Assembly: GCF_030680395.1 (NCBI RefSeq)
Contig: NZ_JAUXVR010000009.1
Span: 165,931-229,930 of the forward strand
Length of the DNA: 64,000 nucleotides
Source of the DNA: Methylobacter sp.
GTDB lineage: Bacteria > Pseudomonadota > Gammaproteobacteria > Methylococcales > Methylomonadaceae
Direction of reading: 5' to 3'
The position numbers and the translations under genes were made by a program. The notes under the pieces are model-generated. The model did no database searches and was not told the origin of the DNA. It saw nothing but the letters and a program-made list of their open reading frames with translations. Shown one piece after another: positions 33,203-50,467 of the stretch; the first letter of the stretch is position 1; every line of letters starts with the position of its first letter.

Positions 33203-33218
33203 TTGGCACAACGATTGC
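33203..33218 (+). promoter_or_regulatory. Sigma-54 promoter, EAL leader
   Basis: TTGGCACAACGATTGC has GG and GC ten bases apart and matches the -24/-12 consensus almost perfectly. The predicted start is near 33230, seven bases before the first ANTAR hairpin. Confidence 0.85.
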
Positions 33219-33236
33219 AGTTCAACACTATAGAGA

Positions 33237-33344
33237 CTCCAATGGCGGAGCACACAGGAATTCCGGTTTAATGGCGAACCATATTGGCAAAGGCGTCTAC
33301 TAAACGGAATGCATTGAGCATTCCGTTGGGAGACGTTTTTTTTT
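33237..33344 (+). ncRNA. ANTAR-type antitermination leader, EAL gene
   Basis: Hairpin 1 is CTCC-AATGGC-GGAG (33237-33250). Hairpin 2 is GGTTT-AATGGC-GAACC (33265-33280). Both loops are six bases with A at position 1 and G at position 4, the rule for ANTAR target RNAs. An intrinsic terminator follows: stem CGTCT/AGACG with inner AACGGAATGC/GCATTCCGTT and nine T (33294-33344). The gene or relic behind it would be read only if the terminator is prevented. Confidence 0.85.
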
Positions 33345-33388
33345 GTCTGATCCAAGACGATTTCCAGGGATAAATACCCTGTGTAAAT

Positions 33389-33532
33389 AAATCAAGACGA
33401 AGTTGAAGAGTGGAAACGGGTAGATCAATTAAGACGATATTTACCACACAACCAAAACTGGCGATGAACAGCAATATAGTAATCGGGGAAATCGCAAAAA
33501 CTGTTATTTCCATGGCTGAACTCACTAAATGA
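33389..33532 (+). pseudogene. Relic of a second ANTAR regulator gene (C-terminal end)
   Basis: The last 23 codons read MNSNIVIGEIAKTVISMAEL-TK-stop and align with the end of the intact ANTAR protein (MDRNIAIGEMAKNIIAMAEL-LK). DNA similarity extends upstream (GACGATATTTACCACACAAC versus GACGATGCTTATCACACCCT) but with a two-base frameshift and a deletion of about 40 bases. The N-terminal receiver is gone. Its TGA overlaps the EAL start codon (ATGA), so the EAL gene was once translated together with an ANTAR protein behind its own ANTAR leader. Confidence 0.75.
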
Positions 33533-34818
33533 ATACCCATATTATGAATCCTGAAAAAAAACTATTCTCTTATTTTGGGCCTATTATTAGCACTGTCAGC
33601 GGCTCTATCTGCAGCCATAAAGCATTAGCCAAACAACGCCAATCCATGAGCCCGGAAAAAAAACTATTTCCTTATTTTCAACCTATTATTGGCGCTGCCA
33701 GCGGCACCATCATCGGTTATGAAGCATTAGCCCGGCAACATGACGCAAAGGGTCGGATTATTTCAGCCGGTGAATTATTCTCTTCGACCGACATTGCCAC
33801 CGACCAGCTGATAGCATGGGATCGCATGGTTCGGCGTCAGGCTTTGGAGCAATTCAGCCGATCAAATTACAAGGGCTATTTAACCATCAATATTTCAGCG
33901 GCATGGATCGACCAGATTGCCGACTTTAAATCATTACCGACACTGCTAATGCTGGATGAGTTTAATGTTGACAGAAACCGCGTTATTATTGAAATAACCG
34001 AATCAAAAGGCGACCTGGACAAACTGGTTGAAATTGCCAGACTGTATCGCCAACACGGTTTGAAAATAGCAATTGATGATTTTGGCGCCGGTTTTTCTCA
34101 GCTGGAAAGAGTCATGGCTATACAACCCGATATCATCAAACTGGACATGCAATTGTTCCAGAGCGCGGCAAAAGGCGGTATCGCCAGCGATGTCGTGCAT
34201 TTGATATCGCGTCTGGCGAAACGCACCGGTTGCCGTATCGTTTGCGAAGGCGTGGAAACCGTTGAAGACTTCCACTTCGGTTTAAGCTGCGGCGCCCAAT
34301 ATATGCAAGGCTATCTGTTTTCGCCCGCCACAGCGGAATTTAAAGAACCGCTGCATTATCAAAAACAAATCAGCACACTCAGAAAGACTTTCCTGAAAAA
34401 GACCCTCGCCAAAGAAGAACACAAGATACAGTTTATCGCCAATATTAAGGGCTTGATCGAACTCCTGAAAAAAGCCCTGGAAAGCGACTTCAACCTCAAA
34501 AAATTATCGGCGCACCCGTTTGAAAAAAGCGGCATTTTACGATTCTATTTATGCAATAACGAAGGCGACCAAATCTCATCGAATTTTAATTTTGCCGATA
34601 GCAATTGGTTCGAGGACCCCGCTCAAATTGGCTTTAACTGGGCATGGCGACCTTATTTTTATCAATTGCTGGCGCTTGAGTCGGCAAAAGACAGTTACCG
34701 CTTGGTCACTTCGGAACGCTATCGGGATTTTAACAGCGATATGCTTTGCAAAACCCTATCGCTTAGACTGGACGAGGAGCGTATTTTATTAATCGATATT
34801 GCCGCCGAGTGGCTATGA
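33529..34818 (+). CDS. EAL-domain c-di-GMP phosphodiesterase with C-terminal sensor domain
   Basis: The protein is 429 residues from the ATG at 33529. The EAL domain (about residues 45-285) has the key motifs: YEALARQ, NIS, EITES, DDFGAG, IKLD and CEGVET. It should therefore hydrolyse c-di-GMP. The C-terminal 140 residues resemble the YkuI-type PAS-like domain found after some EAL domains. The first 70 residues are a tandem duplication of the EAL N-terminus; the first copy has HKALAKQ in place of YEALARQ. No ribosome-binding site is visible because the start was coupled to the decayed ANTAR gene. It lies behind a sigma-54 promoter and ANTAR leader. Confidence 0.88.
   Translation: MNTHIMNPEKKLFSYFGPIISTVSGSICSHKALAKQRQSMSPEKKLFPYFQPIIGAASGTIIGYEALARQHDAKGRIISAGELFSSTDIATDQLIAWDRMVRRQALEQFSRSNYKGYLTINISAAWIDQIADFKSLPTLLMLDEFNVDRNRVIIEITESKGDLDKLVEIARLYRQHGLKIAIDDFGAGFSQLERVMAIQPDIIKLDMQLFQSAAKGGIASDVVHLISRLAKRTGCRIVCEGVETVEDFHFGLSCGAQYMQGYLFSPATAEFKEPLHYQKQISTLRKTFLKKTLAKEEHKIQFIANIKGLIELLKKALESDFNLKKLSAHPFEKSGILRFYLCNNEGDQISSNFNFADSNWFEDPAQIGFNWAWRPYFYQLLALESAKDSYRLVTSERYRDFNSDMLCKTLSLRLDEERILLIDIAAEWL
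33544..33753 (+). repeat. Tandem 105-base duplication at the start of the EAL gene
   Basis: Bases 33544-33648 and 33649-33753 encode two versions of the same 35 residues. Both begin M(N/S)PEKKLF.YF.PII and end with (K/Y)(E)ALA(K/R)Q-like sequence. The first has lost the catalytic Glu. Both are in frame. Confidence 0.85.
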
Positions 34819-35092
34819 TCTTCAGGGCAATTTAATCGCCCCTCACTTTCGGACGCTCCTATAGGCATAATCGACACATAACGATTGAACATAAAAGGCT
34901 TGCACACCAAACCGGTACTGGCATCAATCGGCTTATACAGATCAATGAAATTGCTGAAAGAAGAGGTGTCGGCAAAAATTGACAGTTACACCCCGCTGCT
35001 AATGACGCATGGAAAGCGCTTTAATGCCTATTGATTAACTAAAAGCAGTAAAATTAAACTTTTTTACTGCGCCTTATTCTTGATAAATAGCC

Positions 35093-35482
35093 ATGGACAT
35101 CACCATCACCACACCTGCCCTGTTATTTCCCGCCATTTCGGTTTTGTTTTTGGCCTATTCCAACCGTTTTCTGGCGATTGCCAGCCGGATTAGAGAGCAG
35201 CACAACCTGTTTAATAAAACCCACAGTCCGGTTGCCAAAAAGCAGATCGACAGCTTAAGGCTCCGCATCCGCTTTATTGTGGCGATGCAAGTGCTGGGAG
35301 TCGTTGGCATTATCTGCTGCACCCTGGCTATGGGGCTGATTTTTTACGGCTTGCAATATTACGGCAACATTACTTTCGGCTTCAGCATGGTATTTATTGT
35401 TTTATCGTTGTTAGCCTCAATAAGCGAGTTATTGCTTTCAACAAAAGCGCTCAATATCGAGCTGGAAGATATGGAAGAATAG
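35093..35482 (+). CDS. DUF2721 membrane protein
   Basis: This 129-residue protein has three membrane helices (about residues 8-24, 60-88, 93-115) and the DUF2721 pattern LLFPAISVLFLAYSNRFLAIASRIR near the N-terminus. Function is unknown. Pieces of a second copy lie at about 39661-40134, so this gene was part of a duplicated block. The convergent GAF gene ends 55 bases away. Confidence 0.85.
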   Translation: MDITITTPALLFPAISVLFLAYSNRFLAIASRIREQHNLFNKTHSPVAKKQIDSLRLRIRFIVAMQVLGVVGIICCTLAMGLIFYGLQYYGNITFGFSMVFIVLSLLASISELLLSTKALNIELEDMEE

Positions 35483-35537
35483 CCCACCATTTTAGGCTAT
35501 TCTTTTTGCACCGATTTGAGGCGGATACAGCGGTCGA

Positions 35538-36455
35538 CTAAAACAGAAAAGTGACTACCGCTTTCAACTTTCCGCCATCAATGACAGGCATTGCAAGCAT
35601 GGAACTCAAGCGTCCCTCTACAAGGGCAACTTCCGAGTTATTTCGGATGGCAGGAACGCCGGTTAGCCACACTCTGCCCAATATACCCTCGCCTTTGCGT
35701 ACCGAGATGGTTTCAAACATTTCTGCCAGCTCATCGTTTTGTTTACTGTATCCTGACTGGCACACCAGCCGCTGACCGCTTTCGTCCGGCACCCATATCT
35801 GTATGCGTTTGGCAATTGGCGTAGCCTTAGCCGACAGAAATGTCATGATATAAACCTGATTCGCAACAACTGAAACCGGGATACCCAGCGCCGTCGTTAT
35901 CCCGGCTTTTCTGGCATCCGGGCTTCTGATAAAAGCAGGGGCTTGGCCCAGGTCCTCTATGAGCACGGGCATGCCTGTTGCCCATACCTGTCCGGGCAAA
36001 CCGGAACCCTTGATGAAGCTCATCCTTCTGGATATGCTTTCAAAGGCATCCAGCGTACTGTAATACCCGTCAATAACCGTCAGCTCAGTATTTTTCTCCA
36101 AACTGTTGCTCCACACTTCTATAGCGCCGGCATGATGCTGATCGTCTCCACACAAAAAAACCACCACGGCCATTATAAATTCACCTGAAAACACAGGTAT
36201 GGCAATACCGCTGGTTAAACCTGCCTTTTTGGCCGATTTTGTCCGCTTAAAATAAGAATGATCAAATTCCGTTAATATGACAGGATGACCTGCGGCCCAG
36301 GCTTTACCGGGCAAACCTTCATCATACGCGAAGGATTCTTTTTCACTGGCGACTCTGAATTCATTTAAAGCGCCATACAGTCCTGCGCTAAATCCCAAGC
36401 GGGTACGCTCTTTTGTAGGCACCCATATTTCCGTTACCTTAATAAATGTTTTCAT
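35538..36455 (-). CDS. Triple GAF-domain protein
   Basis: This 305-residue soluble protein is made of three tandem GAF-like units. Each begins with an (E/Q)(I/V)W pattern (EIWVPTKERTR, EVWSNSLEKNT, QIWVPDESGQR) and carries a G(L/I)(P/L)G(K/Q/R).W..G.P core near residues 47, 148 and 254. There is no output domain, so it must signal through a partner. GAF domains bind small ligands or cNMPs; the ligand here is unknown. It is the only intact gene behind the relic at 36457-36552, which precedes its start by one base. Confidence 0.75.
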   Translation of the reverse strand: MKTFIKVTEIWVPTKERTRLGFSAGLYGALNEFRVASEKESFAYDEGLPGKAWAAGHPVILTEFDHSYFKRTKSAKKAGLTSGIAIPVFSGEFIMAVVVFLCGDDQHHAGAIEVWSNSLEKNTELTVIDGYYSTLDAFESISRRMSFIKGSGLPGQVWATGMPVLIEDLGQAPAFIRSPDARKAGITTALGIPVSVVANQVYIMTFLSAKATPIAKRIQIWVPDESGQRLVCQSGYSKQNDELAEMFETISVRKGEGILGRVWLTGVPAIRNNSEVALVEGRLSSMLAMPVIDGGKLKAVVTFLF

Positions 36456-36456
36456 A

Positions 36457-36552
36457 TCAAGGCGTTTTCTTTATACAAGAACGCAGCTTATGCGTAGCTG
36501 ATCGACGTTCTTCATATTTTTCAAAAATATTAAGATAATTTATCTTGGACAT
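36457..36552 (-). pseudogene. Relic of a Cache-sensor gene N-terminus
   Basis: A 31-codon frame begins MSKINYLNIFEKYEERRS. It corresponds to the start of the intact sensor at 31983-32951 (MSKMSHINVIEKYEEHRV) and then stops. The stop lies one base before the GAF gene start, so the remnant may now act as a coupled leader peptide. Flanking sequence up to the sigma-54 promoter is also similar to that of the intact copy. Confidence 0.75.
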
Positions 36553-36832
36553 AACCAGAATACCTGAGAATTAATAATGACTATCCAATGTATAAGCAGA
36601 TTCTATGCCGGATTGGAGAAATGGTCCGGATGGCTGAAACGAGCACTCCATGCGATGCTCTGCACGCGGCATAATCCACAGGGATGTGGTGAAAGCTTCC
36701 GCTCTCCGGCAACGCAGGAGCAATTACCGAGGAGCGAATATCTACCCATGCCATCGTAAGCGCCTAATTTTGGTGCGGCCACTTCTATAATGCACATCAA
36801 GAGAACTTAATTGGTGCGGCACATAGCAGGAT

Positions 36833-36947: not shown

Positions 36948-36963
36948 TTGGCACAACGCTTGC
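36948..36963 (+). promoter_or_regulatory. Sigma-54 promoter, chemoreceptor leader
   Basis: TTGGCACAACGCTTGC matches the -24/-12 consensus with correct ten-base spacing. It differs from the EAL promoter by one base. Confidence 0.85.
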
Positions 36964-36979: not shown

Positions 36980-37088
36980 GCCCCAATAGCGGGGCACTAA
37001 AAATCCTGGTTTAACGGCGAACCATGCTGACAAAGGCGTCAACAGACTGAATGCATGCATGGCATTTAGCTTGGGGGCGTTTTTTTTT
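36980..37088 (+). ncRNA. ANTAR-type antitermination leader, chemoreceptor gene
   Basis: Hairpin 1 is GCCCC-AATAGC-GGGGC (36980-36995); its loop has A at position 4 in place of G. Hairpin 2 is GGTTT-AACGGC-GAACC (37008-37023) and follows the A1/G4 rule. The terminator has an outer stem CGTC/GGCG and inner CTGAATGC/GCATTTAG, followed by nine T ending at 37088. The chemoreceptor ATG is 266 bases further on, and that gap holds no gene. Confidence 0.8.
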
Positions 37089-37353
37089 GTCCATTTAAGG
37101 GCAAAAACCTGACATGAATTAATAAACGGACGCGCCTTATATAGGCTGTTACTGTTAAACAGCCATGATTTTGAACGTTCGCAGCAATTTAAGCATCCGT
37201 TACATTTTAGGCGTCAATACCTCCTGAGATTTAACATAGCCGGCGCATAACAATCGTAACAGCCTTATGACCGGCCGGCCGGAATATGGATCTAATCGAA
37301 ACATTGACTATTTAACAATCCCAATCATAAATATAGAAACAGGAGATTGCATC

Positions 37354-39594
37354 ATGCTAAATAACTTGAAAGACTTTGGACAGTTAACGATCAAAATGCG
37401 TTTTACGATAATTGTCAGCACTTTGGTCATCGGTTTTTCGCTGTTCGGCTTTGCAACATTCAAGGCCATGAATACCGTTAATGTTAATGGCCCCATTTAC
37501 CAACGCATTGTCCAGAGTAAAGATATTATTGCCGATGTTCTGCCGCCGCCTGAATATATCATCGAATCTTATCTGGTGGCGCTGCAATTAAGCCAAGCCG
37601 TCGACCCTGCCGAAATCAGCGCATTAGTAACACGTTTCCGAACACTAAAAACGGAATTCGAGTCCCGTCATCATTATTGGTCGGAGCAGTCTTTGGAGCA
37701 GGAACTTCAGGTTTCTTTACTTGACCGCTCTTACCGGGCGGCGCAAACCTTTTATAACGAAGCCGGTCAGCATTTTCTGCCGAGCATCCAGGCGGGCGAC
37801 CGCGACGGTTCATCGGCAAGTCTGGTGCAAATGCGCCGCGCTTATGAAGACCATCGCGGCGCCATTGATGACGTAGTGAAACATACAACAGCCCGCAACA
37901 TAGAAGATGAATCACAGGCACGAAATACAATACAGGAGTACAAAATCTTCCTGGCCGGTATTTTCGTATTCAGTGTTGCTATGGCCATAGTATTGACCGT
38001 ATTGATCAGTCGCGGCATTTTACGCTCACTCAAAACCGCCCAACAGATAGGAGCAGCGATCGCCGCCGGCAACCTGAATTCCAACATTGATATCCATCAA
38101 AAAGATGAGATAGGAGACCTGTTACGCTCCATGAAAGCCATACAGGATCCTATCAACACCTTCGTTACCGACCTGGACAATATGGCGCAAAAGCATTCTG
38201 AAGGCTGGGTCAAAGAACAGCTCGATGCTTCAAAGTTTTCCGGTATTTATGGCAAAATGGCGCACGAAGTTAATGAGTTGATTCAATCGCGCATCGCTAT
38301 AAACAGAAGGCTGATCAGTATCGTCAACCAGTATGCAAAAGGTGACTTTTCTATTGATATGGATATTCTGCCGGGCGAAACAATTGCCATTACCAATATT
38401 ATGGACAATGCAAAAAAGACCTTCCTGGCAGTTAACAACGAAATCAAGATACTCATAGAAGCCGGCGCTCAAGGCGATTTCTCAAAGCGTAGCGATCCGG
38501 ATAAATTTGAGTTCATGTTCAAAGGCATTTTGACTAATCTCAATAACCTGATGGAAACCTGCGATGTCGGCTTCAACGATGTGCTGCATGTCGCTGATGC
38601 CTTGGCTCAAGGTGACTTAACCCAAACTATCGACAAAGACTATCCAGGCACTTTTGGTGAAGTGATTGTCGGCATGAATAGTATTGTAGAAAACCTCAAA
38701 GGCCTGGTAAGTAACATCAAAGACTCCACCGACAGCATTAGCACAGCCTCCAAAGAAATCGCCGCAGGCAACAATGACTTGTCTCATCGCACCGAGGAGC
38801 AAGCCGCCAGCCTGGAACAAACCGCCGCCAGCATGGAAGAACTGACCTCCGCCGTACAGCATAATGCCACCAACGCCCAACAGGCCAACCGGCTCGCCGT
38901 CGACGCCTCCGACATCGCGGGCAAAGGCGTAGAAGTGGTCGGCCAAGTCGTCGTAACCATGAATGAAATCAATGAATCCTCACGTAAAATCGGGGACATT
39001 ATCTCGGTGATCGATGACATCGCTTTTCAGACCAATATTCTTGCCCTCAACGCTGCGGTAGAAGCCGCCCGTGCAGGGGAACAGGGCCGGGGCTTTGCCG
39101 TGGTCGCCGTGGAAGTGCGCAATCTTGCGCAACGCGCCGCGACGGCCGCAGGGGAAATCAAACACCTGATTCATGATTCGGTGGACAAAGTATCGGGAGG
39201 CAGCAAATTGGTTGCCCAAGCGGGACTGACGATGGAAGAAATCGTCGCCTCCGTCCGCGGCGTTACCGACATGATGGCCGAAATCACCGCCGCCTCCGCA
39301 GAACAAAGCTCCGGCATTGAGCAGGTTAATCAAGCCATTGCTCAAATGGATGACGTAACCCAACAAAATGCCGCCCTGGTAGAACAAGCCGCAGCGGCAG
39401 CGGAATCGCTGGAAGAACAAGCGCAAAACCTGGTGATCACCGTGAGCAGCTTTACAGTGGCTGGTAGCTCAGGTAATTCAAACAGCTATTTTCATATGCC
39501 GGCCGCGAAAAAAGAAACAACACGATCCGCAACAAACGCCGTTAAGAAGTTACAGTTACAACTTGCTGATAATGATGATTGGGATGAGTTTTAA
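37354..39594 (+). CDS. Methyl-accepting chemotaxis protein, HAMP-rich, with CheR-tether end
   Basis: The ATG at 37354 has AGGAG eight bases upstream and gives 746 residues. The first membrane helix (about 16-38) and second (about 204-226) enclose a periplasmic four-helix-bundle sensor with the [13 protein letters not shown] element. A HAMP domain and further HAMP-like segments extend to about residue 440. The signalling tip has the conserved [20 protein letters not shown]. The C-terminal DNDDWDEF matches the xWxxF pentapeptide that tethers CheR/CheB. The stimulus is unknown. The sigma-54/ANTAR leader suggests a nitrogen-related attractant, which is inference. Confidence 0.92.
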
Positions 39595-39660: not shown

Positions 39661-40134
39661 CTTATAAATAGGCATGCACACCACACCTGCCCTGTTATTT
39701 CCCGCCATTTCGGTTTAAGCGGGTTCCCAAGCTCCAGCTCTCGTTTTTATACACATCTCGACGTAGGCCGGAATAAGCTGGTTCGAGTGACAGCGAGAAC
39801 TGGCGTTTCCGGCAAACACTTCCCGAACTCGCCGAAAACGCCAGCTCACGCTACGCGCTGCCTTGTTATTTCCCGCCATTTCGGTTTAAGCGGATTCCCA
39901 AGCTCCAGCTCTCGTCTTTATACCCATCTCGACATAGGCCGGAATAAGGCTGTCCGTAGATACCTATAGCTATGGGGCTGATTTTTTTACGGCTTGCAAC
40001 ATTACGGCAACATTACTTTCGGCTTCAGCATGGTGTTTATTGTTTTACCGTTGTTAGCCTCAATAAGCGAGTTGTTGCTTTCAACAAAAGCGCTCGACAT
40101 CGAACTGGAAGATATGGAGGCGCATGAGTCATAG
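39661..40134 (+). pseudogene. Broken copy of the DUF2721 gene
   Basis: Bases 39661-39716 match the start of the DUF2721 gene at 35093 (CACACCTGCCCTGTTATTTC). Bases 39970-40134 match its last third (CTATGGGGCTGATTTTTT to GATATGGA). The middle has been replaced by repeats. The reading frame is lost. Confidence 0.75.
39691..39948 (+). repeat. Two direct copies of an 87-base segment inside the broken DUF2721 copy
   Basis: Copies at 39691-39777 and 39862-39948 differ at only a few positions and start within the DUF2721 remnant. They carry TTCCCAAGCTCCAGCTCTCG, a sequence also found in the hairpin at 41858. The 84 bases between them contain the inverted pair GAACTGGCGTTTCCGG / CCGAAAACGCCAGCTC. 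Confidence 0.75.
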
Positions 40135-40156
40135 TTGGTGCAAATTAACAGGTGAA

Positions 40157-40270: not shown

Positions 40271-40286
40271 TTGGCACAACGATTGC
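40271..40286 (+). promoter_or_regulatory. Sigma-54 promoter, nrtA leader
   Basis: TTGGCACAACGATTGC is identical over 16 bases to the EAL leader promoter. Confidence 0.87.
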
Positions 40287-40302: not shown

Positions 40303-40414
40303 GCTCCAACGACGGGGCGCCAAAAAAATATCGGTTCAATGGCGAACCACAACAGACAAAGGCGTCTACCAGACTGAATGCATTACGTATTCCGTTAGGT
40401 GACGCTTTTTTTTT
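40303..40414 (+). ncRNA. ANTAR-type antitermination leader, nrtA operon
   Basis: Hairpin 1 is GCTCC-AACGAC-GGGGC (40303-40318). Hairpin 2 is GGTTC-AATGGC-GAACC (40333-40348). Both loops have A1 and G4. The terminator stem GCGTC/GACGC encloses a second pairing (GAATGC/GTATTC) and ends in nine T at 40406-40414, 30 bases before the nrtA ATG. NasT/NasR-type leaders before nitrate assimilation operons are well established. Confidence 0.9.
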
Positions 40415-40444: not shown

Positions 40445-41845
40445 ATGAAACAAACCGGACGATTTACTATCAAAAAACTGGTTACAGCACTGGTTGCTGT
40501 GGCTGCGGTATCAACCTTTTCCTTTGCAACCAGTGCCTACGCAGCTGAAAAGCTGGAAAAAGAAAGCTTAAAACTCGGTTTTATCAAACTGACCGATATG
40601 GCGCCCTTGGCGGTTGCCTTTGAAAAGGGCTATTTCGAAGATGAAGGCCTCTCCGTGCAAGTAGAAGCACAAGCCAACTGGAAAGTGTTATTAGACCGTG
40701 TCGTCAGCGGCGAACTGGACGGCGCGCACATGCTGGCAACCCTGCCCTTTGGTACCGCCATCGGCTATGGCACCAAAGCCGACATTATCAGCGCCTTTAC
40801 CCTGACCTTGAACGGCGATGCGATTACCGTATCTAATGATGTTTGGAATCAAATGAAGCCGCAGATTCCGGTAAAAGACGGCAAACTGGTGCATCCGGTT
40901 AAAGCGGATACCTTGAAGCCAGTGCTGGAAAAATACAAAAGTGCGGGCAAACCTTTCAATATGGCGATGACCTTTCCGGTCGGCACGCACAACATGAAAT
41001 TACGTTACTGGCTGGCGGCCGGCGGCATTAAGCCCGGTTTTTACGCACCGCCTGAAGACACTTCCGGTCAAATTGATGCCGAAGCGATGCTGTCGGTAAC
41101 GCCGCCGCCGCAAATGCCTGCCACGATGGATTCAGGCACGATTGTCGGCTACTGCGTAGGCGAACCGTGGAATCAGCAAGCGGTATTCAAAGGCATTGGC
41201 GTACCGGTAATCAGCGATTACGAACTGATGAAAAACAGCGCTGAAAAAATCTTTGGCGTGACTAAAGAATGGTCGGATAAAAACCCCAATACCCACAAAG
41301 CGGTGATAAAAGCCTTGATTCGCGCATCGATGTGGCTGGATGCTGAAAACAACAAAAATCGTAATGAAGGCGTGGAAATGTTGTCGCAAAAACAATATGT
41401 CGGCGCTGATTACGAGGTTCTTGCCAACAGCATGAACGGTACTTTTGAATATGAAAAAGGCGACAAACGCGACTTGCCCGATTTCAACGTGTTCTTCCGT
41501 CATAACGGCTCTTACCCTTATTACAGTGATGCGGTCTGGAGTCTGACTCAAATGCGCCGCTGGGGACAAATCAACGAATACAAAACCGATGCCTGGTACC
41601 TGGAAACCGCTAAAAAAGTTTATCGTCCTGATATCTACATGGCTGCGGCCAAGGCGCTGATTGCCGAAGGCAAGGCGAAAGCCAGTGATTTTCCTGCCGA
41701 CAACGAAACCGGCATTAAACCACCTAGTGCAGACTTCATTGACGGCATCAGTTTCGACGCCACCAAGCCCAATGATTACCTGACTAAGTTTCCTATCGGT
41801 CTAAAAGGTAAGCAAAAAGTGGTCGGCGGCAAGATTGTCGAATAA
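40445..41845 (+). CDS. nrtA: Nitrate/cyanate-type ABC transporter solute-binding protein
   Basis: This 466-residue NrtA/CmpA-family periplasmic binding protein has a signal peptide ending in ATSAYA (about residue 33). Family motifs include LKLGFIKLTDMAPLAVAFEKGYFEDEGL, HMLATLPFGTAIGYG and VGTHNMKLRYWLAAGG. It should bind nitrate or nitrite; cyanate is possible because cyanase is encoded in the same locus. It is the first gene behind the leader RNA, and a strong hairpin (41858-41887) follows it. That hairpin would favour high expression of the binding protein relative to the rest of the transporter. Confidence 0.92.
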   Translation: MKQTGRFTIKKLVTALVAVAAVSTFSFATSAYAAEKLEKESLKLGFIKLTDMAPLAVAFEKGYFEDEGLSVQVEAQANWKVLLDRVVSGELDGAHMLATLPFGTAIGYGTKADIISAFTLTLNGDAITVSNDVWNQMKPQIPVKDGKLVHPVKADTLKPVLEKYKSAGKPFNMAMTFPVGTHNMKLRYWLAAGGIKPGFYAPPEDTSGQIDAEAMLSVTPPPQMPATMDSGTIVGYCVGEPWNQQAVFKGIGVPVISDYELMKNSAEKIFGVTKEWSDKNPNTHKAVIKALIRASMWLDAENNKNRNEGVEMLSQKQYVGADYEVLANSMNGTFEYEKGDKRDLPDFNVFFRHNGSYPYYSDAVWSLTQMRRWGQINEYKTDAWYLETAKKVYRPDIYMAAAKALIAEGKAKASDFPADNETGIKPPSADFIDGISFDATKPNDYLTKFPIGLKGKQKVVGGKIVE

Positions 41846-41857
41846 TCGCTAGATTCG

Positions 41858-41887
41858 CCGGTTCCCAAGCTCCGGCTTGGGAACCGG
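41858..41887 (+). terminator. Strong hairpin between nrtA and the rest of the operon
   Basis: CCGGTTCCCAAGC / GCTTGGGAACCGG forms a 13-base perfect stem with a four-base loop. There is no T-run behind it, so it is more likely a 3'-end stabiliser or attenuator of the nrtA message than a full terminator. Confidence 0.6.
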
Positions 41888-41920
41888 CCCGAGGTAAATG
41901 TATTTAGGGGAAAGTTAAAC

Positions 41921-42274
41921 ATGACAACGCCAAGAATATTAAACAGCATCGCATTTTTTCAACCGACTGATGACGGTGAACCAATACGTTCGGTTGTAAC
42001 CCAATCTAAAGATGCTGTGGTAGTGGCTTGGTATATTCAACAGGGACAGCAAATTCCCCTGCATGTTCATCCTCAGGGACAGGATACCTGGACCGTATTA
42101 ACCGGCAAAGGCCACTATTATCTGGACAATAATGGAACTACCAAACCGATTATGGCAGGCGATGTCGTCGTCGCCCATACCGGTGAAGTCCATGGGGTAT
42201 TTAACGATAACCCCGAACCGTTGGCGTTTATTTCGGTTGTCTCGCCTGCTGACGCCGGATATCAACCTATTTAA
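41921..42274 (+). CDS. Small cupin-domain protein
   Basis: This 117-residue single cupin has metal-binding histidines in IPLHVHPQGQDTWTV (residues about 45-59) and HTGEVHGVFND (about 86-96). Its position inside the nitrate transporter operon, between the binding protein and the permease, is unusual. It may sense or process a small nitrogen compound. Function unknown. Confidence 0.8.
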   Translation: MTTPRILNSIAFFQPTDDGEPIRSVVTQSKDAVVVAWYIQQGQQIPLHVHPQGQDTWTVLTGKGHYYLDNNGTTKPIMAGDVVVAHTGEVHGVFNDNPEPLAFISVVSPADAGYQPI

Positions 42275-42339
42275 CAAAGCAACGATGCGTAAAACAAATG
42301 CACCCATTATTACAGTCGGTGAAAATTTAGGAGCCAAGC

Positions 42340-43356
42340 ATGTACAATAAAATCATCAAATTTCTTAATATAACCGGGCTAACCTGGTTTGTTCCTTTCG
42401 TAAAAATAGCCGCCGGAGAAAATGCCTCGCTGCAAATCCGGCAACTTTGGCTGATTATGGGCGTGCCCATACTCGCTTTTATGATCTTCCTGGGACTTTG
42501 GAGCTTCTCCGCATCCAAGATCAACACCAGCTTGGGCGCCATCCCCGGCCCAATCGCGGTATGGCACGAAGCAGCCGGATTATTGGACGATCATTTCGCC
42601 GAACGGGCTAAAGAGTCCGAATATTACCAACGCCAGCAAGCCCGTAATGATCAGAAACACGCTGAAGATCCGGCTGCTGAAATCAAAACCCGCCCCTATA
42701 ACGGCCAAGCCACCTATATGGATAAGATTTTCACCAGCCTTTACACAGTCTTTGCAGGCTTTGTGATTGCCACGCTGATCGCCATACCGCTTGGCCTGTT
42801 CTGCGGCATGAGTCCGATCTTTAACTCGGCCATCAACCCGCTGGTGCAGATTTTTAAGCCGGTATCGCCATTAGCCTGGCTGCCCATCGTCACGTTGGTG
42901 GTCAGTGCCGTCTATGCAGCCGGCGATGATGCCTGGTTTGAAAAATCCTTTCTGACTTCCGCAATTACCGTCACGCTGTGTTCGCTGTGGCCGACCCTTA
43001 TCAATACCGCCGTCGGCGTGTCATCGATAGATAAGGATCTGATCAATGTCGGCAAAGTATTGCGTCTTAACTGGAGCACCCAAATCAAGAAAATCATCTT
43101 GCCGTCCGCATTGCCTTACATTTTCACAGGCATGCGTCTATCCTTGGGCGTAGGCTGGATGGTGTTAATCGCTGCGGAAATGTTGGCGCAAAATCCGGGG
43201 TTGGGCAAATTCGTCTGGGATGAGTTCCAGAACGGCAGTTCCAACTCCTTGGGCCGGATCATGGTCGCGGTATTTACCATCGGACTGATCGGCTTTGCAT
43301 TGGACCGCATCATGCAGTCCTTACAAAACATATTCTCTTTCGGTAGAGCGATTTAA
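42340..43356 (+). CDS. nrtB: Nitrate ABC transporter permease
   Basis: This 338-residue permease has five or six helices and the EAA-type loop LPYIFTGMRLSLGVGWMVLIAAEML near residues 254-278, typical of the NrtB/SsuC/TauC group. It is longer than most NrtB proteins. The extra sequence is an N-terminal helix pair with a charged loop (residues about 85-125) before the transport domain. It forms the membrane channel for the adjacent binding protein and fused ATPase. Confidence 0.92.
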   Translation: MYNKIIKFLNITGLTWFVPFVKIAAGENASLQIRQLWLIMGVPILAFMIFLGLWSFSASKINTSLGAIPGPIAVWHEAAGLLDDHFAERAKESEYYQRQQARNDQKHAEDPAAEIKTRPYNGQATYMDKIFTSLYTVFAGFVIATLIAIPLGLFCGMSPIFNSAINPLVQIFKPVSPLAWLPIVTLVVSAVYAAGDDAWFEKSFLTSAITVTLCSLWPTLINTAVGVSSIDKDLINVGKVLRLNWSTQIKKIILPSALPYIFTGMRLSLGVGWMVLIAAEMLAQNPGLGKFVWDEFQNGSSNSLGRIMVAVFTIGLIGFALDRIMQSLQNIFSFGRAI

Positions 43357-43368
43357 TCAGGAGCCGTG

Positions 43369-45210
43369 ATGTCCGTCGTAAATCTTAACATTGTGAACAC
43401 GCGCACGCAGAACAAGTCGCCTGCGCCATCGAATGACGCCCATCAGCCTTTACTGGAATTAAAAGCTGTCTGCAAAAGCTATGGCGCGACATCCATACTC
43501 AACAACATCAACCTGAGCATTAAAGAAGGCGAGTTTATCGCTATCGTCGGCTTTTCCGGCAGCGGCAAAACCACGCTGATTTCAACCATTGCCGGGTTAA
43601 TCCAGGCCGATAGCGGCGAGGTGCTAAAACAAGGCCAACCGATTACCGAACCGGGACCGGATCGCGGCGTAGTGTTTCAAAACTACTCTTTGATGCCGTG
43701 GCTGACCGTGTTTGAAAACGTGGCATTGGCGGTGGATGAAATTTTTAAGGACTGGCCTGCCGAACAACGCAGAGCGCATACCGAAAAATACGTCAGGATG
43801 GTTAATCTCGGCGCGGCCATGGATAAAAAACCCGCCGAACTTTCCGGCGGCATGCGCCAACGGGTCAATGTCGCCAGAGCCTTGGCCGCCAATCCCGATA
43901 TTTTGCTGCTCGACGAACCGCTCAGCGCACTGGATGCGTTGACGCGCGGCAACTTGCAGGATGAGATTTTGCAAATCTGGGCGCAGGAAAAGAAAACCGT
44001 CATTCTGATTACCAACGATGTCGATGAAGCGATTTACATGGCGGATCGGGTTATCCCGCTTAATCCCGGCCCCGATGCGACCTTCGGCCCGGATTTTCAT
44101 ATCAATATCGAACGCCCCAGAGACCGGACGGCATTAAACCATAACGCCGAGTTTAAAAGATTACGCGCCGAAATAACCCGTTACTTGATGGATATCGGCA
44201 TCGAAAAAAATCTGGGCTCAAGCGCTGATAAAATCGTCCTCCCTAATGTTAAACCCAATACCAGTAATGACTGGGATCGTGAGCGTCCTGCCGTTGCCGC
44301 GCCTGCTCCCGACAGTCTTACGGCATACACACCATCCCTGGCAATTGCCGAGACTGCTCCCGGCAGTCTTACGGCATACACACCATCCCTGGCGATAAAA
44401 CCGGCGCAGGATGATTTAGCCCGTCCCCGTTACGTGGAATTTTCACAGCTGTCTAAAATCTACCCGACCCCCGACGGCAACAGCACGGTTAAAGTCGTGG
44501 ACGGCTTCGACCTGAAAATGAAAAAAGGCGAATTCATCTCGATCATCGGCCATTCCGGCTGCGGTAAATCGACAGTGTTATCGATGACCGCCGGTCTAAA
44601 CAGCGTATCAGAAGGCGTTATTATTTTAGATAACAAGGAAGTTTCCAGCGCCGGACCTGATCGCGGCGTGGTGTTCCAGGCGCCCAGCCTGTTTCCCTGG
44701 TTGACCGCGTTTGAAAACGTCATGCTGGGCGTTGATAAAGTCTATCCGCACGCCTCCAAATCGGAGCGTGACGACATCGTCGAATATTATCTGACCCGCG
44801 TCGGCTTGGGCGACTCACTCCGCAAAAAAGCCGGTGACATGTCCAACGGCATGCGCCAACGGGTCGGTATTGCCCGCGCCTTTGCCTTGTCGCCCAAACT
44901 GCTGTTGCTGGATGAACCGTTCGGCATGCTGGATTCCTTGACCCGTTGGGAATTGCAGGAAGTGTTGATGGAAGTCTGGGAAAGAACTCATGTCACCGCC
45001 ATTGTGGTCACCCATGATGTCGATGAAGCTATCCTGCTGGCAGATCGGGTGGTGATGATGACCAACGGCCCGCACGCCAAAATCGGCAAAATAGAAAACA
45101 TTGATTTACCTAGGCCGCGCAGTCGCAAAGCCCTCCTGGAGCATCCTGACTATTATAAATACAGGGAAAGCATATTGAGCTTTCTCACCGAGTGTGATCA
45201 TACTCATTAA
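43369..45210 (+). CDS. Fused tandem nitrate-transporter ATPase (two ABC domains)
   Basis: The protein is 613 residues from the ATG at 43369 (GGAG five bases upstream). Two complete ABC ATPase domains are joined. Domain 1 (about 25-265) has Walker A GFSGSGKTT, signature LSGGMRQRV, Walker B ILLLDEP, but Asn in the H-loop (ITNDVDEA). Domain 2 (about 345-600) has GHSGCGKST, signature MSNGMRQRV, LLLLDEP and an intact H-loop (VTHDVDEA). The linker holds a 17-residue tandem repeat (SLTAYTPSLAI). It replaces separate NrtC and NrtD subunits and has no NrtA-like regulatory domain. Confidence 0.9.
   Translation: MSVVNLNIVNTRTQNKSPAPSNDAHQPLLELKAVCKSYGATSILNNINLSIKEGEFIAIVGFSGSGKTTLISTIAGLIQADSGEVLKQGQPITEPGPDRGVVFQNYSLMPWLTVFENVALAVDEIFKDWPAEQRRAHTEKYVRMVNLGAAMDKKPAELSGGMRQRVNVARALAANPDILLLDEPLSALDALTRGNLQDEILQIWAQEKKTVILITNDVDEAIYMADRVIPLNPGPDATFGPDFHINIERPRDRTALNHNAEFKRLRAEITRYLMDIGIEKNLGSSADKIVLPNVKPNTSNDWDRERPAVAAPAPDSLTAYTPSLAIAETAPGSLTAYTPSLAIKPAQDDLARPRYVEFSQLSKIYPTPDGNSTVKVVDGFDLKMKKGEFISIIGHSGCGKSTVLSMTAGLNSVSEGVIILDNKEVSSAGPDRGVVFQAPSLFPWLTAFENVMLGVDKVYPHASKSERDDIVEYYLTRVGLGDSLRKKAGDMSNGMRQRVGIARAFALSPKLLLLDEPFGMLDSLTRWELQEVLMEVWERTHVTAIVVTHDVDEAILLADRVVMMTNGPHAKIGKIENIDLPRPRSRKALLEHPDYYKYRESILSFLTECDHTH
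44304..44398 (+). repeat. 51-base tandem duplication in the ATPase linker
   Basis: Two nearly identical copies (TGCTCCCGACAGTCTTACGG and TGCTCCCGGCAGTCTTACGG at their starts) have a period of 51 bases. They encode 17 residues of Ala/Thr/Ser/Pro-rich linker twice, in frame. Confidence 0.85.
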
Positions 45211-46619: not shown

Positions 46620-46841
46620 TTGTTTGTCCTTTCCTTTCAGTTTTATAGTGTTCAGCCCCTTGCCATACATTATCTATATAGATCCGGGTAAGAAATGCGG
46701 ACAATACAGCAGGCGAGCGATGCAAAAGTAAATACCGCTGAACATAAGCTTATTTAAAGCGCCTTCTTTTGGTGCTTTATGCCCTCAATTTCCAACTGCC
46801 TGCACCGTAAATAAACAGTATTGCGACGGTCTCAGTCTATA

Positions 46842-46856
46842 TGGCATGCAACATGC
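46842..46856 (+). promoter_or_regulatory. Sigma-54-like promoter of narK
   Basis: TGGCATGCAACATGC has GG and GC ten bases apart, but the -12 triplet is preceded by A. It is 40 bases before the narK ATG. No paired hexaloop hairpins or terminator follow, so narK seems to lack the antitermination step. Confidence 0.5.
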
Positions 46857-46895
46857 TTTTGCTAATCCAGTAATCTTTATAACTGGAAATCTATC

Positions 46896-48374
46896 ATGTC
46901 ATCTCAACGCCTTAACCTGCTCTCCTTTTCGGGAAAAACCAAAATTCTCCACATGACGTGGATGGCTTTTTTTATCAGCTTTGTGGTGTGGTTTAATCAT
47001 GCGCCTTTAATGATGGTGATCGCTAAAACGCTGGGCATGAACAACTCGGAAATAAAAACCATCTTAATCCTGAATGTCGCCTTGACCATTCCGGCGCGCA
47101 TTGTGATCGGTATTCTGGTCGATAAATTCGGCCCTAAACGCACTTATTCAACACTGTTGGCGGCAGGTAGCATTCCCTGTTTTATGTTCGCTTTTGCCAC
47201 CAGTTTTGAACAACTGGCCCTGGCCCGTTTCTTGTTAGGCTTTATAGGCGCCGGTTTTGTGATCGGCATACGCATGGTTGGCGAATGGTTTCCGGCCAAA
47301 CAAGTGGGTATTGCCGAAGGTATTTACGGCGGCTGGGGAAACTTCGGTTCAGCCGCTGCGGCTGGGGCCTTGCCTGCTCTCGCACTGATCTATGGCGGTG
47401 ACGAAGGCTGGCGCTATGCGATTGCAACGACAGGCGCTATTTCACTGATTTATTCGGTCATCTATTTTTTCAGCGTGTCCGACACGCCCAAGGGTTCGAC
47501 TTACTTTAAGCCTAAAAAAGCCGGGGCGATGGAAGTCACCAGTATCTGGGACTTGTTCTTCTATATTCTGATGAGCGTGCCTTTGTATGCCACCTTGAGC
47601 CTGTTAACCTGGAAATTATCGCCAACCGGCGCCAACCTGTTATCGAACGCCGCCGCCCTCTGTATTTATATCGGCATTTGGGCTCTATTCCTCTATAACG
47701 TCTATAAAATTATCCACGTCAACGAGGAACATCTCCAACACCCGATAGAGGAAATTCATAAGTACAAATTCAAACAGGTTGCCATTCTGAATCTGGCGTA
47801 TTTCATTACCTTCGGCTCGGAATTAGCCGTTGTTTCGATGTTGCCGCTGTTTTTCTTCGATACTTTCCACGAGTCGCATGGCATTACCATGGTCGAAGCA
47901 GGCTTGCTGGGAGGTAGTTTTGCCTTCATTAACCTGATTGCGCGGCCTGCAGGCGGATGGGTCAGTGATAAATTCGGCCGTAAATTGTCGTTAAGCATTT
48001 TTGTCTTGGGCTTGTCGGCGGGTTATTTCTGCATGTCGCTGATTGATTCGGAATGGCCCATTGCCTTGGCGGTATTGATAACCATGGCCTGCTCTTGCTT
48101 TGTATCCGGCGGCTGCGGCGCCGTGTATGCGATAGTTCCGTTGATTAAGCGGCGCATGACCGGACAGATTGCCGGCATGGTCGGCGCTTACGGCAATGTC
48201 GGCGGCGTCCTGTTTCTGACCATATTATCGTTCGTCACACCGGCGGTATTTTTTGTGGTCATCGCGGCGGTGGCGTTATCGGTGTTGATCGCCGTACAGT
48301 TTATCGATGAACCGAAAGGCCACATGGCCGAAGTTCAGGAAGACGGTACCGTGGAAATGATTGAGTTGAATTGA
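46896..48374 (+). CDS. narK: Nitrate/nitrite MFS transporter
   Basis: This 492-residue major facilitator of the NNP group has 12 predicted helices. Nitrate-signature elements are ARFLLGFIGAGFVIGIRMVGEWF..., GIYGGWGNFGSAAAAG (first signature, near residue 146) and GAYGNVGGVLFL (second, near 432). It supplements the ABC transporter for nitrate or nitrite uptake. It could equally be named nasA-type. It lies between the porin and the kinase-phosphatase gene. Confidence 0.92.
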   Translation: MSSQRLNLLSFSGKTKILHMTWMAFFISFVVWFNHAPLMMVIAKTLGMNNSEIKTILILNVALTIPARIVIGILVDKFGPKRTYSTLLAAGSIPCFMFAFATSFEQLALARFLLGFIGAGFVIGIRMVGEWFPAKQVGIAEGIYGGWGNFGSAAAAGALPALALIYGGDEGWRYAIATTGAISLIYSVIYFFSVSDTPKGSTYFKPKKAGAMEVTSIWDLFFYILMSVPLYATLSLLTWKLSPTGANLLSNAAALCIYIGIWALFLYNVYKIIHVNEEHLQHPIEEIHKYKFKQVAILNLAYFITFGSELAVVSMLPLFFFDTFHESHGITMVEAGLLGGSFAFINLIARPAGGWVSDKFGRKLSLSIFVLGLSAGYFCMSLIDSEWPIALAVLITMACSCFVSGGCGAVYAIVPLIKRRMTGQIAGMVGAYGNVGGVLFLTILSFVTPAVFFVVIAAVALSVLIAVQFIDEPKGHMAEVQEDGTVEMIELN

Positions 48375-48414
48375 ATCGGATGAAATATTCAGTCCATTAA
48401 TGTAAATAGATTAA

Positions 48415-48487
48415 TTCACCACGAAGACACGAAGGGCACGAAGTTTTATCTTGTTTTTTCTTCGTGAACTTCGTGCCTTCGTGGTGA
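48415..48487 (+). repeat. Long inverted repeat after narK
   Basis: TTCACCACGAAGACACGAAG... pairs with ...CTTCGTGCCTTCGTGGTGA around a T-rich centre. This is a common mobile-looking intergenic palindrome built on CACGAAG units. It may end the narK transcript. Confidence 0.7.
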
Positions 48488-48521
48488 TATGCCTTTTGTA
48501 CCCGGATATAAACTATAAACC

Positions 48522-50258
48522 ATGCCCAAACCAACACTCAAAGTCAGCATCGGCTATGCCAGCGATAAAGGCATCAAGCCGGATAATGAAGATTTTTTCG
48601 GTTCGTTAATACCGGAAGGCCCGCAACTGACTCATAAAGGCATAACCGTTGCCATTGCCGACGGCATGAGCGGCAGTGACGCCGGGAAACAGGCCAGCCA
48701 CTGCTGCGTCGTCAGCTTTCTAAGCGATTATTACAGCACCCCCGACTCCTGGTCGGTCAAACATGCCGGACAAAAAATTCTTTCCGCGACCAATTCCTGG
48801 TTATACAGTCAGGGGCAAAGCCGCTATGAATCGACCAAAGGCATGGTCAGCACGCTTAGCATTATTGTCCTGAAATCGACCACCGCGCATATTTTTCATA
48901 TCGGCGATTCGCGCATTTATCGTTTACGGCAGGGTAATTTTGAGCAGATAACCCGCGATCACCGCATCTGGGTTAAAGAAAAAAATTACCTTAACCGGGC
49001 AATGGGCATAGAACCGCATCTGGAAGTCGATTACCGGGCGCTTTCTTTAGAAACAGGCGACCTGTTTTTAATGACCACTGACGGGATACACGACTTTATC
49101 GATGAAAAAACCCTGAAAAAACTGCTAGACCAAGATGCGGACTTAACCCTGATTGCCGAAAAAATCATGCAGCAGGCCGAAGGCAACCACAGCGATGATA
49201 ACCTGACCTGCCAACTGGTCAGAGTCGATGAACTGCCCGAGGCCGACGAAGACGAGATTATTCGCCGCCACACCAACCTGCCATTTCCGCCCCCGTTGGA
49301 ACCCGGCATGGTGATCGACGGCTACCGGATTGAATCGGAATTGCATGCCAGTAAGCGCACCCAGATTTATCGGGCATTCGATACGAGAACCGATACGCAG
49401 GTTATTTTGAAGACCCCGTCTATTCTCTATGATGACGATCCCCATTACATAGAACATTTTCTACATGAAGAATGGGCGGGGAAACGCATTCGTCACGAAA
49501 ATGTACTAAAAATCCTCAGCCCTAACCGGGAAAAAAGCTGCCTTTATTACGTCACCGAATTTCTCGAAGGACCGACACTGAGACAATGGATAAGCGCTAA
49601 TCCCAAGCCTGATATTAAAGAAGCCAGGAAAATAGTTGAACAGATTGCCAAGGGACTGCGCGCTTTTCATCGCATGGAAATGCTGCATCAGGATTTGAAA
49701 CCCGAAAACATCATGTTCGATAACAACGGCATCGTTAAAATCATCGATTTCGGCTCGGTTAAAATCGCCGGTATCGCGGAAATTACGCCACTGGAACACA
49801 GCGGGGCGGACAACGTACTCGGCACCTTAAATTACACAGCGCCTGAATATCATCTGGGGCAGCACGGCACGGTAAAATCCGACCTGTTTTCACTGGGCGT
49901 CATCACTTATGAAATGCTAAACAGCGCCCTGCCTTTTGGTCAGGATATGCCTGAAAAGCCCAACAAAATGAACCTGGCAAAACTCCAATATATACCCAGT
50001 TTTCATCACAATGCCATGGTTCCGATCTGGATTGACGGTGCCTTAAAAAAAGCCACCGCAATAACCCCGCAATTTCGCTATGACGATTTATCGGAGTTTC
50101 TCTATGACCTGTCCACGCCCAATCCCAGGTTTTTGAGTGCTGAAGAGGCCATCCCTTTAATACAACGCAATCCGTTATTATTCTGGAAAGGCTTGTCGAT
50201 AATACTGCTGTTTACAAATTTGGTTTTGATGTATTTTTTGGTGGACGGGAAAAACTGA
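48522..50258 (+). CDS. PP2C phosphatase-Ser/Thr kinase fusion with C-terminal membrane helix (first paralogue)
   Basis: This 578-residue protein has an N-terminal PP2C phosphatase domain (about 5-235: SDKGIKPDNEDFF, IADGMSGSDAG, HIGDSRIYRL, HSDDNLTC). A protein kinase domain follows (about 270-535) with Lys in VILKTPS, catalytic loop HQDLKPEN, DFGS and YTAPEYHLG. The glycine loop is degenerate. One membrane helix (about 552-574) anchors it. Proteins of this architecture are a regular companion of nitrate assimilation genes in Pseudomonas-like bacteria. Their target is unknown. A second copy lies at 52059-53780. Confidence 0.9.
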   Translation: MPKPTLKVSIGYASDKGIKPDNEDFFGSLIPEGPQLTHKGITVAIADGMSGSDAGKQASHCCVVSFLSDYYSTPDSWSVKHAGQKILSATNSWLYSQGQSRYESTKGMVSTLSIIVLKSTTAHIFHIGDSRIYRLRQGNFEQITRDHRIWVKEKNYLNRAMGIEPHLEVDYRALSLETGDLFLMTTDGIHDFIDEKTLKKLLDQDADLTLIAEKIMQQAEGNHSDDNLTCQLVRVDELPEADEDEIIRRHTNLPFPPPLEPGMVIDGYRIESELHASKRTQIYRAFDTRTDTQVILKTPSILYDDDPHYIEHFLHEEWAGKRIRHENVLKILSPNREKSCLYYVTEFLEGPTLRQWISANPKPDIKEARKIVEQIAKGLRAFHRMEMLHQDLKPENIMFDNNGIVKIIDFGSVKIAGIAEITPLEHSGADNVLGTLNYTAPEYHLGQHGTVKSDLFSLGVITYEMLNSALPFGQDMPEKPNKMNLAKLQYIPSFHHNAMVPIWIDGALKKATAITPQFRYDDLSEFLYDLSTPNPRFLSAEEAIPLIQRNPLLFWKGLSIILLFTNLVLMYFLVDGKN

Positions 50259-50392
50259 TATAGAAATTTAGAACTCTATTTTGCTCGATTTATCCCATTT
50301 TGGTGCATATGCCATTCATTTCAGTGCAAAGAATCCGGCGCTGTTTTAGCTAAAGTCTCGCTGAATCACGCTAAGTAGTTGGATTAATATGA

Positions 50393-50408
50393 TTGGCACA
50401 ATCTATGC
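50393..50408 (+). promoter_or_regulatory. Sigma-54 promoter of the formate/nitrite channel gene
   Basis: TTGGCACAATCTATGC has correct GG-N10-GC spacing and a strong -24 half, with a weaker -12 half (ATGC). A GGTGCA half-site (TTTGGTGCAT) lies near 50300. Confidence 0.7.
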
Positions 50409-50423
50409 TCTATTCAGAAAGAT

Positions 50424-50467
50424 GGTGCAATGGCGCATCCTCTCTTCCCTTCAACAACGGCGTTGAA
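50424..50467 (+). ncRNA. ANTAR-type paired hexaloop hairpins before the channel gene
   Basis: Hairpin 1 is GGTGC-AATGGC-GCATC (50424-50439, one G-U pair). Hairpin 2 is TTCAAC-AACGGC-GTTGAA (50450-50467). Both loops fit A1/G4, and stems differ from the other copies while loops are kept, which is covariation evidence. No clear T-run terminator follows. A seven- to eight-base stem GCTTATTT/AAATAGGC lies at 50473-50489, and AACGAG/CTCGTT near 50550, so the downstream mechanism may differ. Confidence 0.75.

Follow-up and report, generated by a model that had tools for sequence, protein, structure and literature searches.

The question raised by this locus is whether, in Methylobacter, a methane oxidiser of wetlands and lakes where the nitrate supply varies, genes for movement and surface life have come under the same leader RNA switch as the genes for nitrate uptake. 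The DNA analysed (hereafter the window) is a stretch of 64,000 nucleotides forming part of contig C6 of a Methylobacter genome of 4.36 Mb, and it includes a nitrate assimilation (nas) region with nirB, a NasT-like ANTAR gene, genes for an EAL phosphodiesterase, a triple-GAF protein, a chemoreceptor and ABC transport, narK, a gene of the formate/nitrite transporter (FNT) family and a cyanase gene. At four sites of this region, an original prediction had placed a sigma-54 promoter followed by a pair of ANTAR-type hairpins with six-base loops. Our analysis suggests that three of these leaders, those of the EAL, chemoreceptor and nitrate transport genes, are probably NasT-type antiterminators located behind sigma-54 promoters, the two controls together acting as an AND gate, and that the copies in front of the EAL and chemoreceptor genes would have been recruited in Methylobacter.

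Architecture and conservation of the leaders

The elements of the leaders (H1, H2 and H3 being successive hexaloop hairpins) are the following.

33067..33074, plus: NtrC-type half-site TTGGTGCA, upstream of the EAL promoter
33203..33218, plus: sigma-54-type promoter, EAL leader
33237..33250, plus: H1, EAL leader, loop AATGGC
33265..33280, plus: H2, EAL leader, loop AATGGC
33286..33297, plus: H3, EAL leader, GGC-AAAGGC-GUC, putative antiterminator, 3-bp stem including one G-U pair
33289..33345, plus: terminator with nine T, EAL leader
36813..36817, plus: GGTGC half-site, upstream of the chemoreceptor promoter
36948..36963, plus: sigma-54-type promoter, chemoreceptor leader
36980..36995, plus: H1, chemoreceptor leader, loop AATAGC (A4 instead of G4)
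37008..37023, plus: H2, chemoreceptor leader, loop AACGGC
37028..37041, plus: H3, chemoreceptor leader, UGAC-AAAGGC-GUCA
37032..37089, plus: terminator with nine T, chemoreceptor leader
40135..40142, plus: NtrC-type half-site TTGGTGCA, upstream of the nitrate transport promoter
40271..40286, plus: sigma-54-type promoter, nitrate transport leader
40303..40318, plus: H1, nitrate transport leader, loop AACGAC
40333..40348, plus: H2, nitrate transport leader, loop AATGGC
40354..40367, plus: H3, nitrate transport leader, AGAC-AAAGGC-GUCU
40358..40414, plus: terminator with nine T, nitrate transport leader
50300..50307, plus: NtrC-type half-site TTGGTGCA, upstream of the FNT promoter
50393..50408, plus: sigma-54-type promoter, FNT leader, one mismatch
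50424..50439, plus: first hexaloop, FNT leader, loop AATGGC
50450..50467, plus: second hexaloop, FNT leader, loop AACGGC, aligned with H3

The EAL, chemoreceptor and nitrate transport leaders share one layout, in which the promoter is followed by H1, H2, the sequence AAAGGCGUC and a long terminator with nine T. The two hairpins with six-base loops that had been predicted are present behind all four promoters, and the nine-T terminator announced for three of the four leaders was found in these three. The rule that the loops carry A1 and G4 held for seven of the eight loops of the four leaders, the first chemoreceptor loop, with its A4, being the exception. The idea of two hexaloops per leader, however, requires a correction: both exist, but each full leader has a third one (AAAGGC), and it is this one that overlaps the terminator. 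H3 (GAC-AAAGGC-GUC, with A1 and G4 in the loop) lies between H2 and the terminator, and its loop and 3' arm double as the 5' arm of the terminator, so that the two structures are mutually exclusive. The hairpins listed originally (H1 and H2) were also considered as competitors of the terminator and were ruled out in favour of H3, since both of them form together with the terminator in the fold of the nitrate transport leader. In the published ANTAR model (PMC3369936, PMC7496416, PMC8934654), the distal hairpin overlaps the terminator; a distal hexaloop overlapping the 5' arm of the terminator was found in the EAL, chemoreceptor and nitrate transport leaders, as were, chemoreceptor H1 apart, the two or more A1/G4 hexaloop hairpins that mark ANTAR-target RNAs.

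H3 was recovered in 134 of 137 leaders (27/28 from the genus, 88/90 from the family and 19/19 from the class). In the search for H3, A1, A2, G4 and the closing pair were set by the anchor, whereas the fourth (outer) stem pair was left free; 102 of the 134 leaders form this pair, using six standard pair types, while shuffled controls do so in 62 cases on average and in 83 at most. Under a strict rule (A1/G4, stem of at least four pairs) two further hexaloops precede H3 in 19/28 leaders of the genus and in 48/88 of the family (L053 and L056 being left out of this set), and one further hexaloop precedes it in 13/19 leaders from elsewhere in the class, the control for these counts ignoring relatedness. 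Thus, H2 and H3 together make up the usual dual motif, to which the leaders of Methylomonadaceae often add H1.

Concerning the frequency expected by chance, hairpin pairs of the leader loop class (stem of at least four pairs) occur four times in the window, always at the predicted sites, and never in 30 first-order Markov sequences, bearing in mind that the loop class was derived from the same data and that the control takes no account of relatedness. With a generic A..G.. loop rule and stems of at least five pairs, three pairs were found in the window, two of them at the predicted sites (control mean 0.27, maximum 2). A pattern of two AAYGGCG loops run over the whole genome was rejected, as it gave 16 matches against 27 in the reversed control; only the EAL and FNT leaders, among these 16, have a promoter and both stems of at least 4 bp, and the pattern is so narrow that the chemoreceptor and nitrate transport leaders are not caught by it.

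A covariance model of the clade was built from 28 leaders of the genus, including the EAL, chemoreceptor and nitrate transport leaders of the window, at which it scores 131, 116 and 101 bits. Over the genome itself, it gave only these three strong matches, plus two weak echoes of the same leaders on the opposite strand (22-26 bits). In the 28-leader alignment, the helices of H1, H2 and the terminator are paired in 93.2% of the cells, and the covariation score exceeds that of all 500 shuffles. At gathering score, Rfam recognised no leader in the window and matched only two group II intron parts; in a lax search, the narK RNA (RF03032) and P11 (RF00625) families matched the leaders below their gathering scores, the former with 30.4 bits at the nitrate transport leader and 21.3 bits at the chemoreceptor leader, against a threshold of 43.2. 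The narK RNA family does reach its gathering score in one leader found with the clade model (L292). In the covariance search that had been suggested as a check, the clade model was strong at three leaders, whereas the Rfam matches in the window stayed below gathering score and the FNT leader was missed.

As regards the promoters, the pattern TGGCAC-N5-TTGC is matched perfectly at 33204, 36949 and 40272 and with one mismatch at 50394, which bears out the four sigma-54-type promoters predicted at 33203, 36948, 40271 and 50393. With two mismatches allowed, the window contains the motif 77 times, against 71.8 expected, and shows no enrichment; since this density is that of chance, the promoter matches by themselves prove nothing. 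GGTGC/GCACC half-sites, putative NtrC sites by their resemblance to the NtrC consensus, are present in the 190 bp preceding 27 of 31 promoters, often near -135 (shuffle mean 4.8, maximum 11, with a control that ignores the common descent of the 31 promoters). An exact -24/-12 element is also found about 40 bp ahead of the start of nirB, where a leader would not fit, so that sigma-54 control without an RNA layer appears to be present in the nas cluster too.

The FNT leader is a different case. Despite its two good hexaloops, inspection of sequence and fold revealed no clear terminator, and for this reason we did not class it as an attenuator. It was misaligned by MAFFT and therefore excluded from the covariance model, which does not detect it. 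A comparison of FNT homologues revealed that the leader is conserved in genome G018; in G022 the first loop is kept, with a stem that is changed yet paired, and the second loop has decayed; the leader is absent upstream of the FNT gene of G013 and of the more distant homologues L147-L150. It may represent a weaker, two-hexaloop relative of the other leaders, an assignment that is less secure.

The proposed reader of the leaders and its candidate partners

The leaders lie among the following genes.

21744-24287, minus: nirB
24622..25197, plus: NasT-like ANTAR protein with a pseudo-receiver (Asn54), proposed leader reader
33440..33528, plus: decayed tail (3' end) of a nasT-like gene, located after the EAL leader and before its gene
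33529..34818, plus: EAL phosphodiesterase with a YkuI_C domain, catalytic motifs found
35538..36455, minus: triple-GAF protein, proposed to sense nitrate as the partner of NasT
37267..39594, plus: methyl-accepting chemotaxis protein with several HAMP domains
40445..41845, plus: NrtA-like binding protein of a nitrate-type ABC transporter
40445-45210: nitrate-type ABC transport genes
46896: narK
50675..51484, plus: FNT family protein
51571: cyanase gene

The protein at 24622 is of the NasT-like, receiver-ANTAR type. Of 151 genomes of the family, 87 carry an ANTAR gene and 83 the leader, and the two distributions largely coincide (both in 81 genomes, leader only in 2, ANTAR gene only in 6, neither in 62). 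The claim that this protein controls all four leaders is no more than likely, since the genome encodes a second ANTAR protein, on contig C33, whose ANTAR domain scores above the Pfam cut-off and whose gene lies beside an open reading frame that, judged by sequence, may encode a PAS kinase.

The NasT of the window lacks the phospho-acceptor aspartate, position 54 being occupied by Asn, a residue shared by 52 of 58 aligned sequences (Asp in 1/58). The missing phospho-acceptor makes it likely that this NasT is governed by a protein partner. No NasS-type gene was found in the genome, where the sole NMT1_2 match is the transporter binding protein at 40445. The triple-GAF protein is present in 50 of the 151 family genomes, every one of which is ANTAR-positive; among 80 named triple-GAF loci, nasT lies upstream, on the same strand and within 500 bp in 53, with a spacing of 15-58 bp in 52. 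The link between the GAF protein and NasT is not universal, since no nasT match was found in the 13 Bradyrhizobium loci examined (L256-L268). The Bradyrhizobium triple-GAF protein shares about 50% identity, and the L256 copy adjoins an NMT1-type ABC transporter. The predicted fold comprises three GAF domains (mean predicted local distance difference test score, pLDDT, of 85); the match to the NCBIfam NreA model reaches 24.5 bits against a cut-off of 175, and in a Foldseek comparison NreA (6izj) ranks 44th amid many GAF folds. From its position directly behind nasT in most related loci, we infer that the triple-GAF protein is a candidate for the nitrate sensor that would hold NasT.

In all six GAF-lacking family genomes chosen (L269-L274), nasT lies directly behind a narK homologue, with a gap of 0-3 bp or a one-base overlap, and these NarK proteins share 53-60% identity with that of the window, hinting that NarK might be the partner of NasT there. 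In at least five other genomes (G004, G036, G086, G108 and G125), among the matches listed, an ANTAR match has a NasS-like NMT1_2 match no more than 1 kb away. The pattern of neighbours indicates that the candidate partners of NasT vary between genera.

Putative targets and history of the leaders

The set of 90 further family leaders (88 of them from other genera) extends down to 33.2 bits, weaker matches and opposite-strand echoes being excluded. The first gene behind them encodes a nitrate binding protein in 67 cases, NirB in 16, an EAL protein in 2, NarK in 1 and a chemoreceptor in 1; the remaining 3 have no assigned gene, although two of them (L071 and L077) have an NMT1_2 match in its place. 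Outside Methylobacter, the family leaders include one EAL target and no chemoreceptor. In other families of the class, 14 of 19 leaders precede genes for a nitrate binding protein, NirB or NarK, the other 5 being unassigned. By this comparison, the nitrate transport leader of the window is to be seen as an ordinary nas leader, and the EAL and chemoreceptor copies as putative Methylobacter recruitments, some of which have later decayed. Immediately upstream of the nitrate transport promoter, a piece of a second DUF2721 gene was found (39976-40119).

The prediction that the EAL and chemoreceptor genes are targets is supported by the position of the leaders and by their homology. Both genes sit inside the nas cluster in Methylobacter, and the distance from the EAL match to the chemoreceptor match behind it is 50 bp in G010, 126 bp in G018 and 101 bp in G008. 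The EAL leader is complete in 5 of 11 copies (window, Methylobacter tundripaludum SV96, G021, G013 and one G018 copy), and the chemoreceptor has a clear leader of its own in the window, SV96, G021, G001 and G006 and a degraded one in G011, these counts leaving out the upstream regions of the G022 EAL and G013 chemoreceptor genes. Across Methylobacter species, one and the same gene has variously gained, shortened or lost its leader, which provides a set of natural variants.

The decayed nasT-like tail located between the EAL leader and its gene is also found in relatives L021, L024, L027 and L031, and its last codons only in L028; this suggests that the EAL gene may formerly have stood directly behind a nasT gene. 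The start of the EAL gene (33529-33720) contains an in-frame near-repeat, MNPEKKLFSYF... being followed 39 codons later by MSPEKKLFPYF..., and EAL relatives align to the protein of the window only from residue 40 onward. At L138 (contig C5 of G018), a complete leader of 104 bits precedes a piece of an EAL-associated C-terminal domain, with no open reading frame longer than 100 amino acids directly downstream. In another genus (L109, genome G176), a different EAL-type protein (29% identity) lies behind an ANTAR-like leader and beside a triple-GAF gene. The clear parts of the L109 leader are limited to the first hexaloop, H3 and the terminator, and it is possible that this locus represents a second EAL recruitment. 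As for the stimulus perceived by the chemoreceptor, the fold comparison of its sensor region (model mean pLDDT 75) returned helical bundles only, with no match at E 0.001 or better.

Proposed mechanism, alternatives and neighbouring features

The "nitrogen status" that had been proposed as the signal needs to be split into two, as sigma-54 and NtrC would report nitrogen limitation and NasT would report nitrate. Judging from the promoter and half-site sequences, NtrC and sigma-54 would start transcription of the leaders under nitrogen limitation. RNA polymerase would then reach the terminator, the 5' arm of which (AAAGGCGUC), as conservation and covariation indicate, could fold as the H3 hexaloop instead. 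By analogy with what has been modelled for EutV and NasR, nitrate would release NasT, which would then occupy H2 and H3, H1 offering an additional site, and the H3 held by NasT would let the polymerase read through. In Methylobacter, the nitrate uptake leader would have been copied, promoter included, to the genes for the EAL phosphodiesterase and the chemoreceptor, whose expression would require both a shortage of nitrogen and the presence of nitrate. More tentatively, and with some doubt on our part, the system might be a methanotroph switch with swapped parts, in which a triple-GAF sensor (or perhaps NarK, in other genera) holds a non-phosphorylatable NasT, the leaders carry three hexaloops, and the regulon has been widened in Methylobacter to the breakdown of cyclic di-GMP and to chemotaxis, so that nitrogen hunger combined with nitrate would free the cell from surface life and steer it.

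Several observations weigh against the antitermination reading of the EAL, chemoreceptor and nitrate transport leaders. All of the regulation is deduced from sequence. The three leaders of the window sit in the seed of the model that scores them, with common descent unaccounted for, and the half-site control has the same weakness with regard to the 31 promoters; A1, A2 and G4 of H3 are fixed by the search anchor. In the minimum-energy folds, both listed hairpins form in the nitrate transport and FNT leaders, but H2 is missing from those of the EAL and chemoreceptor leaders, where H1 and the terminator form. The loop of chemoreceptor H1, AATAGC in the window, is GATAGC in two sister species, and the FNT leader lacks a clear terminator. 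Finally, 4 of the 11 EAL copies (G010, G012, the other G018 copy and L198) have hexaloops without a T-run terminator, and 2 (G008 and G011) keep the promoter alone, hexaloops and terminator being gone.

This loss of the RNA elements at EAL genes, together with the degraded chemoreceptor leader of G011 and the off-rule H1 loop of the chemoreceptor leader in the window, is what would be expected if the EAL and chemoreceptor leaders were passive, decaying copies derived from a duplication of the nitrate promoter, with selection acting on sigma-54 control alone. We regard this as unlikely, as full leaders, with scores of 79-118 bits, persist before the EAL gene (in the five copies named above) and the chemoreceptor gene (in five genomes), though the spacer between leader and gene has decayed. 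The leaders might otherwise act in trans, as short terminated RNAs that titrate NasT, in which case the EAL and chemoreceptor copies would influence the nitrate operon to a greater degree than the genes behind them. The occurrence of three similar terminated leaders inside 7 kb would suit such a role, as would the description in Rfam of the related P11 family as a small RNA; however, each of the three is followed by a long open frame on its own strand, and where the chemoreceptor gene has no leader of its own, it closely follows the EAL gene, which leaves a titrating function improbable. To the ANTAR protein of contig C33 we assign hardly any probability of being the reader: it exists, its domain passes the Pfam cut-off and a kinase-like gene adjoins it, but it shows no linkage to the nas region, a single ANTAR match is all that many leader-bearing genomes of the family contain, and nasT is part of the nas cluster wherever a Methylobacter locus covers that cluster.

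Among the closest known systems is the NasR/nasF leader of Klebsiella oxytoca (PMC7496416, PMC3369936), which is alike in serving nitrate assimilation, in having two A1/G4 hexaloops with the distal hairpin overlapping an intrinsic terminator, and in its ANTAR reader. It differs in that NasR joins NIT and ANTAR domains in a single protein, whereas in Methylobacter the proposed reader is NasT-like, a further hexaloop lies upstream and the putative targets include an EAL and a chemoreceptor gene. NasS-NasT systems (Paracoccus denitrificans, Bradyrhizobium and others) likewise place a receiver-ANTAR protein of NasT type on the leaders of nitrate genes (PMC6759348, PMC3795266), but the Methylobacter genome has no NasS-type gene and most related loci have a triple-GAF neighbour. 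The narK RNA and P11 families of Rfam match the same region, differing from our leaders in their targets. Further background is given in PMC8164766 and PMC8396549.

With regard to the suggestion that EAL and chemoreceptor genes are not classical targets, a chemoreceptor target had already been proposed by Ramesh et al. 2012 (PMC3369931), who place ANTAR RNAs ahead of many nitrogen genes and, putatively, of one chemoreceptor gene. The RNA described there overlaps with the ribosome-binding site, and translational control was suggested for it, whereas in Methylobacter we find a promoter, hexaloops and a terminator arranged as a putative attenuator. In the literature on ANTAR, NasT and methanotrophs, represented mostly by titles and with subscription papers sparse, no EAL target, three-hexaloop leader or GAF partner of NasT came to light. 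The newer sides of the system are thus the motility-type targets, the third hexaloop and, likely, a different sensor, the remainder being mostly of a known kind. ANTAR antitermination is known chiefly from nitrogen metabolism, and attenuators on a cyclic di-GMP phosphodiesterase and a chemoreceptor, if confirmed, would link movement and surface life to nitrate through transcript elongation. The three-hexaloop layout raises the question of whether two ANTAR dimers bind each leader or a choice of sites exists, and where NasS is lacking and NasT has a GAF protein or NarK as its neighbour, partners of another kind are suggested.

Some further features were observed around the nas region. The FNT and cyanase genes are flanked by two proteins with PP2C phosphatase/Ser/Thr kinase domains (48522-50258 and 52032-53780). 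At 54534-56509, GAF-PAS and sigma-54 activator domains lie on two overlapping open reading frames in different frames, perhaps representing a split regulator gene, and on the minus strand, at 56827-58688, group II intron parts surround an open reading frame of 442 amino acids.

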